From the NCBI GenBank assembly GCA_024998685.1, contig JACOEH010000051.1:1-34026 (forward strand): a stretch of DNA of 34,026 nt, in the 5' to 3' direction. Below are positions 14,871 to 20,147 of this stretch, piece by piece. A program made the position numbers and the translations under genes. The stretch comes from Nitrospira sp. GTDB taxonomy: Bacteria; Nitrospirota; Nitrospiria; Nitrospirales; Nitrospiraceae. The stretch's first letter is position 1, and each line of letters opens with the position of its first letter. Below the pieces are notes generated by a model. It did no database searches. It worked only from the letters and a program-made list of their open reading frames with translations, and was not told the origin of the DNA.

Positions 14871-15344
14871 ATGACTAAAGAGACGGAAGATCAGCGGAAA
14901 GTCGTCGCCACTAATCGGAAGGCCTACCACGACTATTTTATCGAGGAAAAGTTCGAGGCCGGGATTGTGCTCAAAGGCACCGAGGTGAAATCGCTTCGGG
15001 AGAGGCGAGTGAACTTGCAAGACAGTTACGCGGGCATTAAAGAAGGCGAGGCCTTTCTCCATCATTGTCACATCAGTCCGTATAGTCATGGCAACATGAT
15101 GAACCATGACCCGATTAGGACCCGCAAATTGCTCCTTCATCGAAAGGAGATCAACAAGCTTCTCGGGAAAACCCAGCAGAAAGGCCTCACGCTGATCCCC
15201 CTCCGAATCTATTTTTCAGAACGAGGCCAGGCGAAGGTCGAACTTGGATTAGCAAAAGGAAAGAAACAGCATGATCGCCGAGAATCGATTAAGGCTCGAG
15301 AAGCCGGACGAGAAGTGGAACGAGCGATCAAAGAACGGAAATAG
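14871..15344 (+). CDS. smpB: SsrA-binding protein SmpB
   Basis: A 157-residue partner of tmRNA in rescue of stalled ribosomes. The family phrases are clear: [60 protein letters not shown] and [20 protein letters not shown], ending with the basic tail [20 protein letters not shown]. The length is normal. The ATG at 14871 is preceded by a weak GGGG. The tmRNA gene (ssrA), sometimes adjacent, is not visible downstream or elsewhere in the window. Confidence 0.97.
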
Positions 15345-15532
15345 GGAAAAATCAGTCTATTATTCAAAATGCATTAACGATTCGAAAACCCCACCGCATC
15401 ATCTCTATGACCTTGACCGATACGACAAGGAACCGCGCCGTGCCGCCTCCGCTGCTCATGGACGGCGACGCGGCGCGTATGGGACATATCCGCACATGTG
15501 GTAATCTTAACTCCTACCGATGACTCGACAAC

Positions 15533-15559
15533 CTCTTTTCTCGCAAGGAGAGAAAAGAG
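15533..15559. terminator. Perfect 10-bp hairpin, possible end of the minus-strand small-protein transcript
   Basis: CTCTTTTCTC (15533-15542) and GAGAAAAGAG (15550-15559) flank a 7-base loop. It lies 10 bases beyond the stop codon of the last small minus-strand frame. There is no clear T-run after it, so termination is inferred from position. Confidence 0.45.
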
Positions 15560-15569
15560 ACCATATTCA

Positions 15570-15653
15570 TTATTCACCGTCAAGGAACGCCGCCTTATAC
15601 ATAAACCCAAAAACAGCGGTCAGCGCGAGCAATGCAAAGAATATCGTCGTCAT
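15570..15653 (-). CDS. 27-residue single-helix membrane protein (small protein A)
   Basis: An unannotated-size gene of 27 codons ending in TAA. The product is one hydrophobic helix from MTTIFFALLALTAVFGFMYK, then a short polar tail (AAFLDGE). AGGGGGG lies 9-14 bases upstream of the ATG. Its start overlaps, out of frame, the stop of the 52-codon frame before it, suggesting coupled translation. The segment AVFGFMY matches AIFGVLY in the small protein at 16070-16150. Size and topology recall accessory subunits such as KdpF or CydX, but the sequence does not identify it as either. Function unknown. Confidence 0.55.
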   Translation of the reverse strand: MTTIFFALLALTAVFGFMYKAAFLDGE

Positions 15654-15808
15654 GGATTTTCACCCCCCTTCACTCGTGAATATACTCCTCGAAAATGAAT
15701 GGCCGATGATGAGATCGTGAAGACATTTTCATAATTCATCGATTTGTACAGTTGACCAATGAGCCGACGGATGGAAAGCGCACTGGGAACGTATTGATTC
15801 GCGGGCAT
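15650..15808 (-). CDS. 52-residue frame upstream of small protein A, part of a duplicated leader
   Basis: Starting at the ATG at 15808, the product contains SIRRLIGQLYKS followed by NYENVFTISSSAIHFRGVYS and ends in RVKGGENP, its stop overlapping the start of the next small gene. The stretch is similar in the same frame to sequence before another small gene (16151-16240: NEELFTISLWALHLGGVY). A third, shorter copy (IRRLLGNEELFTMISS, then stop) lies near 16795-16850. Either this is a small protein family with decayed copies, or a conserved RNA/DNA leader that happens to be open. The ribosome binding site is poor. Function unknown. Confidence 0.4.
   Translation of the reverse strand: MPANQYVPSALSIRRLIGQLYKSMNYENVFTISSSAIHFRGVYSRVKGGENP
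15681..15732 (-). repeat. Duplicated leader, copy 1
   Basis: These 52 bp match 16179-16230 at 42 positions without a gap, on the same strand and the same distance (27-28 bases) before a small-protein start codon. The copy contains TGAAGACATTTTCA (15718-15731), a degenerate form of the palindrome in the other copies. Confidence 0.7.
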
Positions 15809-16069
15809 GGTCCGAGACAAAACCAGTAAATTTAGGAGGGGATATCTAAAAGTGATACTTCTTACGCAGGACTTATACGCATGAATCTGACAGAACGGCT
15901 TCCGACCAAACGTCCGCAAGGTTGCAGGTTATAGCCGCCTTTAACAGCAGCATGACCCAACGTTCACGCTGAAGCGAACGAAACTACAAACACAGATGTG
16001 GGACCGGCAAGTCAGAGCTGCTGTGCCCAACCATGCTACAGCGCAGAGATCTACCGAGTCCTGCGCTCG

Positions 16070-16150
16070 TCATCTCCTGGCGAGCTGCAACATTGCGTAC
16101 AACACCCCGAATATGGCGGCCAATAAGAACACTTCGATGAAGGAAACCAT
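16070..16150 (-). CDS. 26-residue single-helix membrane protein (small protein B)
   Basis: A 26-codon frame ending in TGA whose product is one hydrophobic helix (IEVFLLAAIFGVLYAMLQ) with a basic end (LARR), so the C-terminus is probably cytoplasmic. AAAAGGAG lies about 11 bases before the ATG at 16150. The frame is open further upstream to an ATG at 16315, which would give an 81-residue protein carrying the NEELFTISLWALHLGGVY leader sequence fused to this helix; I cannot exclude that form. AIFGVLY is shared with small protein A. Function unknown. Confidence 0.5.
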   Translation of the reverse strand: MVSFIEVFLLAAIFGVLYAMLQLARR

Positions 16151-16178
16151 GAGAGGGTCATCTCCTTTTGGTTTCCTG

Positions 16179-16230
16179 TATACGCCTCCAAGATGAAGCG
16201 CCCATAATGAGATCGTGAAGAGTTCTTCAT
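16179..16230 (-). repeat. Duplicated leader, copy 2
   Basis: About 80% identical to 15681-15732 over 52 bp without a gap. It contains TGAAGAGTTCTTCA (16216-16229), palindromic except for the central pair, and lies 28 bases before the start of small protein B. Confidence 0.7.
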
Positions 16231-16356
16231 TAAGTAGTGCTTTCCAGCAAGGCATGAAGTTTCCGAGAAGGTAAGCACGCTTCCCGTCGGGCTTTGGACC
16301 GCATTCGACTTCCATGCCTAACGCGTCAGCCTGGCAGGTCCTTCATGAGTATGCCG

Positions 16357-16437
16357 TCAGGAACCAATTTCCCGGCTCCCCCACAGTATAAGCCCAACAA
16401 AACTCATGGTGAGTATGAAGAGGAAAGTCGCCATCAT
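16357..16437 (-). CDS. 26-residue single-helix membrane protein (small protein C)
   Basis: A 26-codon frame ending in TGA. The product begins MMATFLFILTMSFVGLILWG and ends in a polar SREIGS tail: one membrane helix. The ribosome binding site is the best in the segment, GGAGG nine bases before the first ATG at 16437. Same length as small protein B and similar pattern around the helix centre (SFVGLIL against AIFGVLY). A GTTGAA/TTCAAC palindrome lies 45-60 bases upstream. Function unknown. Confidence 0.55.
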   Translation of the reverse strand: MMATFLFILTMSFVGLILWGSREIGS

Positions 16438-16481
16438 GATATTTCACCTCCATTCGTCAGGTTTCGCATGCTCATCAAGCA

Positions 16482-16497
16482 GTTGAAGGATTTCAAC
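16482..16497. promoter_or_regulatory. Palindrome before small protein C
   Basis: GTTGAA-GGAT-TTCAAC, perfect 6-bp arms around 4 bases. It resembles the TGAAGA/TCTTCA palindromes before the other small genes and overlaps the stop codon of the frame at 16493-16732. Confidence 0.4.
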
Positions 16498-16732
16498 GCG
16501 GGGTAAATACGGCACACCCGGGTATAAAGCAAATCTTGCAACGTGTCTCTTCTTTGCGTGATGCTTTGACCATTTCGTTCGATGTCATGAAAGGGATCTT
16601 CTGACCATTGATTCCCGCGGCTGTATCACGGACTGTTCTTACGGTCGAGTGTGTCCCCACGATAATTGCTTGTCCGAGTCCAACGATGACGTACGGAAAA
16701 CAGACCATTGAAGCAGCGATAACACTTGCCAT
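16493..16732 (-). CDS. 79-residue small membrane protein of uncertain identity
   Basis: Starting at the ATG at 16732, with AAAGGA about 12 bases upstream, the product has one hydrophobic segment (MASVIAASMVCFPYVIVGLG) and then a soluble part with GQAIIVGTHSTVRTVRDTAA and three cysteines near the end (RCKICFIPGC). The GxGQ...AAGxxGxKI pattern at residues 18-45 faintly recalls the first helix and loop of ATP synthase subunit c, but the second helix is absent. A second frame (16444-16584) over its 3' part also looks coding-like, so a frameshift or truncation is possible. Low certainty that this is an intact gene. Confidence 0.4.
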   Translation of the reverse strand: MASVIAASMVCFPYVIVGLGQAIIVGTHSTVRTVRDTAAGINGQKIPFMTSNEMVKASRKEETRCKICFIPGCAVFTPR

Positions 16733-16807
16733 GTATTCCAATCCTTTCTTGAGTTATTCATACAAGAAAGCATATCGAGTCGACATGAAATCAGGATGAA
16801 ATCATGG

Positions 16808-16821
16808 TGAAGAGCTCTTCA
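16808..16821. promoter_or_regulatory. Perfect 14-bp palindrome between the histidine kinase and the small genes
   Basis: TGAAGAGCTCTTCA is perfectly self-complementary and matches the near-palindrome at 16216-16229 in 13 of 14 bases. It lies between the kinase stop and the first small gene, where a regulator site would be expected. It is also part of a leader copy, so it may be inherited sequence rather than a selected operator. Confidence 0.45.
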
Positions 16822-16936
16822 TTCCCCAAAAGACGACGAATGCCATGTCTTGGCAAGGTAAAACAGCAGTAGAAGTCGAGTTAGATTAGAATGGCGCAGA
16901 ACGTAGTCGGATGAGGGCAAAGTGCTTCGAGAACCG

Positions 16937-18373
16937 TTAGGCAAGAACCGTCTGCTGAGCGAGAGCCGGTAACCGTAGGGTGAAGACGGAGCCTCTGTGG
17001 ACTTCGCTGGTGACGGAAATGCTCCCGCCATGGGCCTCCATGATTTCCTTCACGATGGGAAGTCCTAGCCCTGTACCGGCGGAATCTTTTGCCCTGGCCC
17101 AATCGGTGCGGTAGAATCGTTCAAAAAGATGGGGAATGTTCTCCGGCTCGATTCCATGGCCTGTGTCCTCGACCGCTACCATCACTTTTTGACCGACGGC
17201 TTGCAAGCGGATGGTAACTACTCCACCGGATGGAGTGTAACGCAGCGCATTGTCGAGCAAATTGATCAATGCTTGTTTGAGCCACTGGGCGTCGCCGAGT
17301 ACGGAGGGAACCGGCTGAGATTCAAACCGCAAGGTGATCTGGCGGTCATCCGCCAAAAGAATCAACTCATCCACAATCTCCTGAATAAGAGGCTCCAAGG
17401 CGAGCGGGACGAGATTGACAGGCGGCTTGCTACTGGTGAATTTCGCAAGGGTCAACAACGGGCGGGTTAAGGCGATGAGCCGATCCACTTGCTGGAGGTT
17501 GTTGAGCAACACTTCGCGATATTCTTCGACGGTCCTCGCTTTCATGAGTGCGACCTCCAGGTTGCCCTGCAGGATGGTCAGGGGGGTCCTCATCTCATGG
17601 GCGGCGATCTCGCAGAAGTTCCGTTGGACCTCGCTCCCTCGCTGGAACTGATCCAATACCGAGTTGACGGCCTGAGTCAGTCGCCGAAATTCTCGATAGG
17701 GTGAATCCATCGGCAGACGCTTCCCAAGGTCGGCTTCCGACATGGTTTCAGCGCCCGTACACAAAGCCTCGATCGGAGCCATCACTTTCTTTGCCAGCCA
17801 GAGGCTCCCGACCCAAGCCAGGATAAGAGTGGCCCCGGATCCGAGAGTGAGCAGAAACACAAGGCCATACAAGGTTTCCTGGTAATGCAGCAACGAAGTT
17901 TCGGCCTGCACGATGTACTGCGCACGGCCTTTGCCGAGGAGATAAAGGAATAAATGCCGCGCTGGCGTCCCATCAGGCGCCTTGAGCGTCTCGAACAGGA
18001 TATTTTTGAGGCTGACCTGTTCCAACACGTGAGAAGGGAGCGATCCTTGCCCAGTTGCGTGAGGACTCCTCCACAAAAGCGAGCCGTTGGTTGAAAAGAC
18101 ACGGAGGGCGTGGGTCACGTCGGGCAGTACGTGCTGTTCCGTTGTGTTTTGGGTCAACTCGTTGGTCGGGGGAGTGTCCTTGCCGCCTTGTTCAAAGAAC
18201 TCGGGATACCGCTCGACAAACTCGGCCAGTGTTTCCGCCAACACCAGCAGTCGCCCATCCACTAATCGTTGTAACAAAATCTCGCTGGCGGCGTATACGA
18301 GCGCAGAAAACGCGAGAAGACCGGCCATCAACACGAAGGCCGACCAGCTGATCAGGGTCCGCAGGGATTTCAT
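16937..18373 (-). CDS. Two-component sensor histidine kinase
   Basis: A 478-residue membrane kinase. It has a first membrane helix (residues 8-30), a periplasmic region of about 135 residues, a second helix (about 169-194), a HAMP linker, then the dimerisation domain with phospho-acceptor H259 in EIAAHEMRTPLTILQGN. The ATPase domain shows an N box (LINLLDNALRYTPSGG), G1 (VEDTGHGIEPENIPHLFERFY) and G2 (GTGLGLPIVKEIMEAHGG). The architecture is that of CusS/QseC/PmrB-type kinases; the signal is not deducible. Its start overlaps the response regulator stop by four bases. Transcription would run on towards the small membrane-protein segment. Confidence 0.92.
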   Translation of the reverse strand: MKSLRTLISWSAFVLMAGLLAFSALVYAASEILLQRLVDGRLLVLAETLAEFVERYPEFFEQGGKDTPPTNELTQNTTEQHVLPDVTHALRVFSTNGSLLWRSPHATGQGSLPSHVLEQVSLKNILFETLKAPDGTPARHLFLYLLGKGRAQYIVQAETSLLHYQETLYGLVFLLTLGSGATLILAWVGSLWLAKKVMAPIEALCTGAETMSEADLGKRLPMDSPYREFRRLTQAVNSVLDQFQRGSEVQRNFCEIAAHEMRTPLTILQGNLEVALMKARTVEEYREVLLNNLQQVDRLIALTRPLLTLAKFTSSKPPVNLVPLALEPLIQEIVDELILLADDRQITLRFESQPVPSVLGDAQWLKQALINLLDNALRYTPSGGVVTIRLQAVGQKVMVAVEDTGHGIEPENIPHLFERFYRTDWARAKDSAGTGLGLPIVKEIMEAHGGSISVTSEVHRGSVFTLRLPALAQQTVLA

Positions 18374-19053
18374 GCGGAGGCATCCGGCTCTTCGAGCATA
18401 TATCCGGCGCCACGCACCGTGGCGATCAAAGGCGGCGAAAAGTCCCGGTCGATCTTCGCCCGGAGGGCTCGAATGTGGGCATCGACGATATTCGTCATGG
18501 GATCATAACTGATGTCCCACACATGCTCGATGATTGCCGTTCGGGTGAGCACGCGATTCTTGTTTCGGAGCAGGAATTCGAGCAGGGCATATTCTTTATT
18601 CGTCAGAGAGATTTCCTGCCCTGCGCGCCAGACACGGTGAGAAGCCGGGTCTAGCCGAAGGTCGGCCGCCTGAAGATGGGCAATTTGCTGGGAGCTCCCG
18701 CGGCGCAAGAGCGCCCTGATTCGTGCCAGCAATTCCGCGAAGGCGAACGGCTTCGGCATAAACTGATCCGCGCCGGTATCAAAGCCGGAGACCTTGGTCT
18801 CCAAGTTGTTTCGCGCGGTCAGTAGCAGCACCGGAGTGGAGATGCCTTTGTCACGAACGCGACGGCAGAGGGTCAGGCCGTCGAGCTTGGGTAACATGAT
18901 GTCCAGGATCATCAGATCATAGGAATTGTCCAGAGCCAACGCCAAGCCGGCTTCGCCGTCGGCGGCGACGTCCACCACATAGTGCTCTTCCTTCAGTCCT
19001 TTTCTGATGAATTGCGCAAGATCCGCATCGTCTTCAACGAGCAGAATTCTCAT
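18370..19053 (-). CDS. OmpR-family response regulator
   Basis: A 227-residue regulator paired with the downstream kinase. The receiver domain has the acidic pocket (VEDD at 6-9), phospho-acceptor D51 in LMILDIMLPKLDG, T79 and K101. The C-terminal winged helix follows (LTNKEYALLEFLLRNKNRVLTRTAI and VDAHIRALRAKI). Length and layout are those of CusR/QseB-type regulators. The four-base overlap with the kinase shows coupled translation. The gap from the secreted-protein gene upstream is 39 bases, so this pair is probably part of a longer operon. Confidence 0.95.
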   Translation of the reverse strand: MRILLVEDDADLAQFIRKGLKEEHYVVDVAADGEAGLALALDNSYDLMILDIMLPKLDGLTLCRRVRDKGISTPVLLLTARNNLETKVSGFDTGADQFMPKPFAFAELLARIRALLRRGSSQQIAHLQAADLRLDPASHRVWRAGQEISLTNKEYALLEFLLRNKNRVLTRTAIIEHVWDISYDPMTNIVDAHIRALRAKIDRDFSPPLIATVRGAGYMLEEPDASA

Positions 19054-19092: not shown

Positions 19093-19710
19093 TCAACAGA
19101 GACTACCCGTGCAATCTGTGACCACCAGATTAATTGCTTTTTCGTCAACATCGAGATCAATGGTCAGCCAGGCTATTCCCATCGCTCGCTCATCCTGGCG
19201 GGCTCCACTGCTCCCCTCAAGGGGACTGACAACATAATAGCGGCCGGCCGGAACTTTCGTGAACCAAAAGTGACCGGTTGGATTGGCCCTTGTCGTGCGG
19301 AGATAGGGAATAAGGCGCTTATCGGCCAGCAGTTGGGCTATGACCGCGCGGAGGCATTCCATAGGCGACTCCTGAGCCACTGGGGATTCTGAAGACGAGG
19401 CCCCATTTTTTAAAGGGCAGGAGTAATCCCGCACATTTCTGTCGAACCAATAGCGAGTATATGAAACAACTGGAATCAAATAGATTGAAGCTCCGGCCTG
19501 AGTCACGGCTTTTCCAGAGGTTGCGCGCAAGAACACCTGTCCAGCCGCGCCGCTCCGACCTTTGGCCCGGTAGGCGAAGAGCTCTTTTTCGTTGAAGGCC
19601 GGTGGGATCGATGAACCCGACACCACCGCTTGTGCCCATACCACGTGGAAGCTGCTGATCAGCAGTAGATAGATGAAGCAGCACCGGAGTTGCCTGCCAC
19701 GCCGCGTCAT
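19093..19710 (-). CDS. Secreted protein of unknown function
   Basis: A 205-residue protein with a signal peptide: basic start (MTRRGRQLR), hydrophobic core (CCFIYLLLISSFHVV) and a likely cleavage after WAQA. The mature part contains a beta-rich region (AAGQVFLRATSGKAVTQAGA, then IYLIPVVSYTRYWFDR) and later HFWFTKVPAGRYYVVSP, a pattern typical of carboxypeptidase-regulatory-like (CNA-B type) beta sandwiches. It has four Cys in the mature part. Its start overlaps the stop of the FTR-beta-like gene by four bases. It may be the periplasmic input or target of the adjacent two-component system; that is speculation from position. Confidence 0.65.
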   Translation of the reverse strand: MTRRGRQLRCCFIYLLLISSFHVVWAQAVVSGSSIPPAFNEKELFAYRAKGRSGAAGQVFLRATSGKAVTQAGASIYLIPVVSYTRYWFDRNVRDYSCPLKNGASSSESPVAQESPMECLRAVIAQLLADKRLIPYLRTTRANPTGHFWFTKVPAGRYYVVSPLEGSSGARQDERAMGIAWLTIDLDVDEKAINLVVTDCTGSLC

Positions 19711-20147
19711 GTCGAGGAGGCTGACGGCGTCGTGGACTCGTCGGGCACGGTTGCAGTTGGGACGGCCTTGTGTTTGAGGGCGCGGCCTATGTCGGGGGTC
19801 GGATCGGTGACCACGCCATACACTTCGCGACCTTCATGGCCGTCCGGCAAATATTCCGTAATCGGCATTCCATCTTCACGGACAAAAAGGAGACAATGAC
19901 AGTATTTGTAGATCTGCATTTCGTCGCATGCGCAGATCCACCGCCGGAGCTTGGCTTCGGCTTCTTTGTCCTTATAAAAGTTACAAGGGCAGAGCGGTTT
20001 CCCGAGTTCGTCGATATGAGACGCTAATCCCTTGACCACTGCCTCGGTTACAGCGGTGTTGGGATGCATCGAGGTTCCGCTTTTCTCGGCAAAACCCTGT
20101 ACAAACTTCCGTATCTTATCGAGGCTTTCCTGCGTTGGTTCGGCCAT
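19707..20147 (-). CDS. Ferredoxin:thioredoxin reductase catalytic (beta) subunit-like protein
   Basis: A 146-residue protein with the exact FTR-beta cysteine layout: C53-P-C55, 16 residues, C72-A-C74, 8 residues, C83-H-C85. In plant-type FTR four of these bind a [4Fe-4S] cluster and two form the active disulfide that passes electrons from ferredoxin to thioredoxin. By alignment C55 and C85 would be the redox pair. The C-terminal third (after residue 115) is Ser/Thr/Pro-rich and probably disordered. No variable (alpha) subunit gene is visible nearby. It heads a minus-strand group with a secreted protein and a two-component system. Confidence 0.85.
   Translation of the reverse strand: MAEPTQESLDKIRKFVQGFAEKSGTSMHPNTAVTEAVVKGLASHIDELGKPLCPCNFYKDKEAEAKLRRWICACDEMQIYKYCHCLLFVREDGMPITEYLPDGHEGREVYGVVTDPTPDIGRALKHKAVPTATVPDESTTPSASST

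Follow-up and report, generated by a model that had tools for sequence, protein, structure and literature searches.

We analysed a stretch of 34,026 nucleotides from Nitrospira sp. (contig JACOEH010000051.1, assembly GCA_024998685.1), called the window below, which carries on its minus strand a two-component system (TCS) and, behind it, a row of very short open reading frames (ORFs). Judged from sequence, this locus is probably the home of a TCS regulon in Nitrospira of the complete ammonia-oxidising (comammox) type, in which a DNA box of the response regulator (RR) would switch on membrane micro-proteins, and these would dock on membrane complexes. A FeThRed_B-like gene, the gene of a 205-aa protein, the RR gene and the sensor histidine kinase (HK) gene follow each other in this order, and then 1.6 kb remain to the convergent smpB gene. 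The gap holds four ORFs, N, C, A and B, all on the minus strand. A (16070..16150, MVSFIEVFLLAAIFGVLYAMLQLARR) and B (15570..15653, MTTIFFALLALTAVFGFMYKAAFLDGE) encode single-helix micro-proteins of 26 aa and 27 aa, and N (16493..16732) encodes 79 aa with a hydrophobic N-terminal half and the C-terminal RCKICFIPGC. An earlier note on the window had listed B, A and C (15570-15653, 16070-16150 and 16357-16437) with a ribosome binding site each; all three frames are located as described and a Shine-Dalgarno-like sequence precedes each of them, while N was missed there. Such mini-proteins escape normal gene calling, as the note had said, because they are too short. In the following, L-numbers denote the loci compared, G-numbers the genomes, and numbers such as C12 the contigs of the own genome.

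The segments in front of A and B had been described in the earlier note as leaders, about 80% identical over 52 bp and equally distant from their frames. This agrees with our counts: 41 of 52 positions (79%) are identical, and the distance from the start of the -10 to the ATG is 32 nt for A and 31 nt for B. The upstream alignment gave TTCAY-N6-NTCAY-N6-TTCAT, a triple 11-bp direct repeat, then 10 nt to a -10 which is mostly TAnnnT or TATA. We read the leaders as putative promoters, composed of a response-regulator-type box and a -10, as expected for an OmpR-family regulator. Regulators of the OmpR/PhoB type use helical-period direct repeats in place of a -35, and direct repeats with a period of about 11 bp stand here upstream of the targets at a constant distance to the -10. 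The box of A (16193..16219, TTCACGATCTCATTATGGGCGCTTCAT) has one mismatch to the motif and is followed after 10 nt by TATACA (16177..16182). Exact matches lie before B (box 15695..15721, TTCACGATCTCATCATCGGCCATTCAT; -10 TATATT at 15679..15684, 10 nt past the box; motif match 15679-15721) and before N (box 16785..16811, TTCACCATGATTTCATCCTGATTTCAT; -10 TATGCT at 16769..16774, 10 nt past the box; motif match 16769-16811). The box of N is the third leader fragment that had been seen behind the kinase gene; the fragment is real, but what it precedes is the overlooked ORF N. No ordinary sigma-70 promoter was detected on the minus strand by the consensus scan, as would fit an activator that takes the place of the -35. 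The idea that the leaders are structured RNA was discarded after an Rfam search over 15300-17000 with just two chance-level matches.

For comparison we used 41 loci: besides the window, 40 stretches of 39 other genomes that surround a kinase ortholog or smpB. In this set A can be recognised 29 times, B 19 times, N 8 times (once frame-broken) and C twice, and the more distant loci have diverged sets behind the kinase, named D (2 loci) and E (3 loci). All 29 A genes, 17 of the 19 B genes, both D genes and all 3 E genes are preceded by a box with at least 11 of its 12 core positions, and all 8 N genes by one with at least 10. The exceptions in B are L069, where B directly follows A, and L080, where the box is degraded. 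In every boxed A, B, D, E and N gene the -10 starts 10 nt after the box, and the distance from the -10 to the ATG is 28-55 nt except in L059 (103) and L096 (102).

A, B and N are protein-coding and under purifying selection in the named frame. Selection had been proposed in the earlier note as a check on the peptides, and we measured it as uncorrected Nei-Gojobori pN/pS with column permutations (n=200). The 27 distinct sequences of A gave a pN/pS of 0.26, the 16 of B gave 0.28 (with L078 omitted for its misregistered start) and the 7 of N gave 0.26 (first 25 codons only, with L066 left out for its broken frame). None of the 200 permutations was as low in any of the three cases, and the alternative frames gave 0.78-2.17. 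The lengths of A, B and N are conserved and Shine-Dalgarno sequences are present. Matches to B with 62-93% identity (E below 1e-4) occur in 18 of 146 other genomes searched. Among 14 chosen A sequences I5, E6 and I13 are invariant and Y18 nearly so, while 13 chosen B-type sequences share an invariant Y19 and a nearly invariant G16; the A-type is marked by an Ile-Glu pair near the N-terminus and the B-type by a G-x-x-Y-[KR] end. The long overlapping frame 16070-16315 was rejected as the true gene in place of A, because the box and the -10 of A fall inside it. In G102 a frame break lies within N. The C-terminus of N is Cys-rich (RCKVCFIPGC in relatives) and might be a metal site.

The third peptide of the earlier note, C (16357..16437, 26 aa, hydrophobic, downstream of N, MMATFLFILTMSFVGLILWGSREIGS), did not stand as an established gene and its coding status is doubtful. 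A Shine-Dalgarno sequence precedes it, but it lacks its own leader, both C frames having only 7 of 12 core positions of the box before them. It was found in only 3 genomes, and its stop codon is lost in L212, a near relative. Between the window and L059 there are 6, 7 and 7 differences across the codon positions, that is, no codon-position bias; with only three sequences, purifying selection was not found. At the box sites of L155, L159, L172 and L177 an N-like ORF is followed by a 25-aa ORF resembling B and C.

The TCS itself is of the OmpR type, with a receiver plus winged-helix output regulator beside a HisKA/HATPase kinase. The RR gene (18370..19053, minus strand) matches Pfam Response_reg and Trans_reg_C, and the HK gene (16937..18373, minus strand), which overlaps it, matches HisKA and HATPase_c. 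The best NCBIfam model for the RR, TIGR01387 (cztR/silR/copR), scores 260 bits against a cut-off of 279 bits, and HK reaches 247 bits with TIGR01386 (cut-off 293), so both stay below the cut-offs of the heavy-metal Cus/Czc/Sil subfamily. In the fold search the core of E. coli CusS ranks third (40% identity). The pair thus appears nearest to the CusRS/HprRS group, whose models are the best for both proteins and whose kinase core ranks high, but since the scores are below the family cut-offs, a metal or oxidant signal is only a guess. The CusR box is a palindrome, while the box here is a triple 11-bp direct repeat. Naming the sensor fold of HK from the structure model was given up as too weak (mean pLDDT 63.5, pTM 0.34); the matches came from the catalytic core. 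The named kinase matches with at least 52% identity over most of the protein came from records titled Nitrospira, Nitrospiraceae, Nitrospirae and once Nitrosospira, several of which we take to be published comammox genomes.

The micro-protein families follow the TCS closely. We call a genome a TCS genome when it has a kinase match with E below 1e-180, and add G100 (80% over 277 residues). With a profile of A, 49 copies of full length (E below 1e-10) were identified in 31 of 66 genomes; in 45 of these copies the exact box stands 70-85 nt before the start. In the window copy and in one copy of G099 the box has one mismatch, that of G099 lying farther upstream; one copy of G102 has a shifted -10 and a second copy of G099 a degraded box. 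The B-type profile has matches in 33 of 66 genomes, all of this genus and all with the TCS. Of the genomes of this genus, 38 of the 39 with the TCS contain an A-type (E below 1e-10) or a B-type member (E below 1e-6), and none of the other 12 does; among those 12, G125 has a related family (W) and G139 a boxed E-like ORF. Fisher tests on counts of this kind overstate significance, since orthologous loci are not independent. The units of leader and mini-membrane-protein had been taken for local duplications directly downstream of the TCS; they do lie there, but related units are also dispersed through the genomes. Besides, the RR gene itself has a box 379-538 nt upstream in some related lineages (5 distinct loci), as for autoregulation, and in two of the five a 31-34-aa hydrophobic ORF comes after this box.

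The box was then searched in 54 genomes with the pattern TTCAYN7TCAYN6TTCAYN10TA, using the reversed pattern as a control. There are 131 exact sites in 42 TCS genomes versus 3 in 12 genomes without a kinase ortholog (one each in G132, G133 and G139), while the reversed pattern has 0 matches in all 54. Generally, TCS genomes have at least one site (41 of 42; G070 has none). The own genome of 4.83 Mb contains box plus -10 exactly 5 times, two of them here, and the reversed pattern 0 times. The surroundings of the sites were examined in 60 fetched regions, of which almost all lie away from the home locus; the set omits most sites at the home locus as well as G137, which nearly duplicates G130. 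A hydrophobic ORF of 22-40 aa follows 18-70 nt on at 30 of 65 sites in these regions, and at 26 of 61 once four copies belonging to TCS loci are removed. Over all fetched loci, many of them orthologous, the count is 79 of 130 sites, compared with 218 of 40,000 random positions in the same loci. The boxed micro-ORFs include paralogues of A (e.g. MLSFIEAYAFVAIFGMLYGMLQLASR), clade-specific B-like ORFs (e.g. MTVIVLGAIGATLLFGVLYKALSAGNE) and a third family (e.g. MDANWLIFGGVLLGLAGAAFFVYKKGQ). Other boxed targets are Slp-family lipoproteins (Pfam PF03843), a second lipoprotein without known family and amoC, and further ones, by eye, are PAS-kinase-like and NtrC-like proteins.

In L115 (own-genome contig C9, 8734-8877) a B-type promoter with a B-like frame of 26 aa leads into the beginning of an Slp-family lipoprotein gene, and in L171, L191, L202 and L211 the B-like frame and the lipoprotein are in one frame, as if the lipoprotein had captured a micro-gene to serve as its leader. 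In L163 and L207, which have no TCS ortholog, the box precedes exported proteins of about 100-125 aa (PepSY-like by eye), and a more distant kinase homolog (42-45%) lies close to the box in both.

The regulation of ammonia monooxygenase (AMO) in complete nitrifiers is poorly known, and the putative regulon is linked to AMO in two ways, neither of which had been part of the earlier note. The first is co-occurrence: amoC was found in 48 of 52 genomes with the kinase versus 7 of 82 without it, some of the matches being contig-end fragments. These are 134 of our 147 genomes; the other 13, of low completeness and without kinase ortholog, were left out (G003, G007, G008, G027, G029, G034, G044, G106, G109, G113, G115, G117 and G124). 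The kinase without a detected amoC is seen in G090, G023, G049 and G144, and amoC without a kinase ortholog in G087, G125, G139, G037, G085, G103 and G120. Among 15 chosen genomes tested for amoB, G144 has it, showing AMO there, and it was not found in G090, G023, G049 and G120.

The second is the box itself, which lies 191-291 nt before one distinct amoC type in 5 of 5 genomes (G000, G046, G099, G102 and G111). This type is 88-100% identical to the copy on own-genome contig C12. In a survey of one locus per genome plus six others (L148 equals L170, and L197 repeats L124), no box was found within 450 nt of any of the 29 other amoC loci examined, which are 70-87% identical; the second own-genome amoC, on C97, likewise has none. 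In G046 and G102 the boxed amoC sits inside the block between HK and smpB, after N. In G099 (L197, 2255-2848, minus strand) a boxed 198-aa exported protein of no known family lies just upstream of a second amoC. Directly upstream of the non-boxed amoC of C97 (L126, 2309-2449, minus strand) is a 47-aa single-helix ORF with clear matches at 3 amoC loci examined, among them L134 and L136, with a MarR-like gene nearby (by eye).

Taken as a mechanism, the kinase would sense an envelope or metal-type signal, and the phosphorylated RR would bind the triple 11-bp repeat at the -35 position and activate separate promoters; for binding and activation we infer from motif, spacing and co-occurrence. The commonest products would be proteins of 24-32 residues with one membrane helix, of the A-type, the B-type and further types, and the same box would also drive N, lipoproteins of the Slp family and of other kinds and, in five of the genomes, one distinct type of amoC. 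The micro-proteins would act as small accessory or regulatory helices under stress or starvation. Docking on membrane complexes seems the likeliest role, and is preferred in view of the strong selection and the conservation of particular residues. AMO might be the first candidate partner, though we name it with considerable doubt. Since several of the more distant loci have a boxed lipoprotein behind the kinase, the micro-proteins appear to be a later-evolved output of an older TCS of the envelope type.

Several observations weigh against the regulon as we picture it. The link with AMO is not strict: the TCS, copies of A and boxes are all present in G090 (96% complete), but neither amoC nor amoB was found there; G087 and G125 possess amoC and amoB and lack a TCS ortholog, A and B, G125 holding only family W; and the boxed amoC is known from only 5 genomes. 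As for the box, 35 of 65 sites are without a following hydrophobic ORF of the kind counted above, several of them without a clear target, and 95 of 101 RR loci, including the window, have no box within 900 nt upstream of the RR. Nor does a micro-protein always stand behind the kinase. In L249, L258, L264, L265 and L266 a boxed 212-aa lipoprotein stands behind it instead, and the closest named relative, L212 (HK 97%), has N, C and B but lacks A at this place. Frame integrity, the loss of which the earlier note had named as a refuting condition, was not perfect, since the B gene of G137 is split between frames. Moreover, a CRISPR spacer carries 38 nt of A, so that A may have a mobile history.

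This spacer lies in the array of own-genome contig C77 (L284, 26389-26427), has 38 nt and is identical (38/38) to the A gene at 16106-16143 of the window. It first surfaced as a weak hit of the A profile and is a spacer, not a gene. The array has 21 repeats within the 1.8 kb fetched, and only this 1 of its 20 spacers matches any of the 335 fetched sequences; it also equals A of G146 (L078). A mobile origin of A was not established, as the plasmid search gave no match and viral contigs matched neither A nor the box. The spacer may be self-matching, may reflect travelling A-bearing DNA or may come from a mixed-strain bin.

A more specific version holds that comammox AMO uses the micro-proteins as its own small subunits, or as helices for its assembly or stability, and receives them along with a stress AmoC. 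The co-occurrence of TCS and amoC and the box before one amoC type, beside N in two genomes, speak for it. Non-operonal amoC copies are described in comammox and betaproteobacterial ammonia oxidisers, stress-linked in the latter (PMC6311188), and archaeal AMO is described as carrying extra small membrane subunits (PMC10030591). Nitrosomonas singleton amoC3 is likewise a non-operonal amoC under a stress regulator (PMC6311188), but that regulator is a sigma factor, while here it is apparently a TCS with a direct-repeat box that amoC has in common with the micro-proteins. No sequence match to the micro-proteins was found in a PDB copy including AMO structures (chains of only unknown residues excluded). 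Among solved structures in general no match was significant, the top profile hit being mycobacterial SdhF at E 0.45. Many paralogues per genome would also be odd for a fixed subunit, and the version is weakened by G090, with micro-proteins and no detected AMO, and by G087 and G125, with AMO and without A or B; we regard it as possible but doubtful.

The micro-proteins could instead be general membrane-stress peptides that would enter the bilayer and lower membrane potential, fluidity or metabolism under envelope stress. E. coli YohP is also a small membrane protein in a stress setting, with 27 aa, linked to starvation and lowering the membrane potential (PMC12719787). Slp-family lipoproteins are co-regulated with the micro-proteins, and multi-copy helices would suit a bulk membrane role. 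However, the residues kept in A and the B-type and the low pN/pS suggest protein partners. HMM searches of 28 micro-proteins against known small-protein families, YohP included, gave no convincing match, only weak hits of one or two members, such as DUF3094 (E 0.0026) and a sorting-signal model (E 0.0006) with one of the 28 each. CydX/YbgT was absent among the matches listed up to E 10, where HMMER filters may miss such short weak matches. YohP is moreover presented in PMC12719787 as one protein, not as a multi-copy TCS regulon. Overall, we consider this role rather unlikely.

Feedback on the kinase is a further explanation, in which A and its relatives would dock on the transmembrane helices of HK and damp or tune its signalling. 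The best-known case is MgrB of E. coli and Salmonella, a single-helix small protein likewise under TCS control, which has conserved cysteines and inhibits PhoQ; A and B contain no cysteine. MgrB belongs to the PhoPQ regulon and acts in this way (PMC8404706, PMC10576120), and A is boxed and in many loci comes soon after the kinase. The KdpDE system offers a TCS-regulated membrane peptide of about 30 aa, KdpF, for which a two-hybrid test shows binding to KdpD (PMC3618439). Unlike the micro-proteins here, KdpF is transcribed together with kdpABC; no KdpF model was among the matches of the 28 micro-proteins, and no kdp gene among 20 scanned neighbours. Whereas MgrB is one protein of 47 aa acting on PhoQ (PMC8404706), we see dispersed families of 24-32 aa, and paralogues of different type scattered in one genome exceed the needs of feedback. 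Family W, too, shares the A pattern in G125, without this TCS and with another upstream element. Feedback is therefore distinctly improbable in our view.

Small hydrophobic type I toxins of the Hok/TisB kind would fit in size and hydrophobicity, and a stress-type control would resemble that of TisB by LexA, but the Rfam search of 15300-17000, by which alone antisense RNA was sought, yielded nothing beyond chance level, and an activator-type promoter for each gene and persistence under purifying selection make this very improbable. That the boxes drive non-coding RNAs, with the short frames as by-products, would suit short transcripts and the lack of codon-position bias in C, but it can practically be dismissed in view of the low pN/pS of A, B and N in the named frame only, their conserved length and their Shine-Dalgarno sequences.

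The interpretation as a TCS regulon of docking micro-proteins is not of a wholly new kind, since MgrB and KdpF show that small membrane proteins can be controlled by a TCS; new would be a dispersed multi-copy regulon, and one in comammox. Our searches of the open-access literature turned up no account of a TCS regulon made up mainly of dispersed multi-copy micro-proteins, and none of a comammox TCS regulon that includes amoC or micro-proteins, in line with the earlier note, which knew of no described system of this layout. A bolder and quite tentative statement would be that a comammox TCS controls radiating, multi-copy proteins of about 26 residues which re-tune AMO or its membrane together with a stress AmoC. 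If true, complete nitrification would have a dedicated regulatory layer made of proteins too small for gene callers. The defined box and the named targets in dozens of genomes make the circuit directly testable, provide a candidate regulator for one amoC type and draw attention to membrane proteins of a kind likely to be overlooked in gene calling.

As for the remaining features, an exported-looking protein of 205 aa (19093..19710, minus strand) lies upstream of the RR gene and is co-directional with it; its Pfam matches are all sub-threshold, and it recurs in the same position in many loci of the genus. Next comes a co-directional ferredoxin-thioredoxin-reductase beta-like protein (19707..20147, minus strand) with a match to Pfam FeThRed_B and one below cut-off to NCBIfam NF041072. 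Directly after the stop of B lies a hairpin (15528..15564, minus strand; fold -15 kcal/mol), a possible terminator without a clear T run; its z is -2.3, 3 of 200 shuffles were as good, and the terminator scan did not flag it. In L063, L065, L066, L077 and L098 the spacing between kinase and smpB is about 5-10 kb, which suggests that the block is an insertion hot spot, and in L063 and L066 box genes flank the extra DNA on both sides. Finally, a further 27-aa family with the A pattern (MTTWTIEAFLLSAIMGLTYTVRSLDRE) occurs in L285 (own-genome contig C43, near 49371), L286-L297, L300 and L301. By eye, it has another recurring upstream element, TTTCACACAGAATT...TGTAA...GAAACA, and in three of these loci (L285, L289 and L296) a B-like ORF of 30 aa stands before it, so pairs of A-type and B-type may recur under another regulator.

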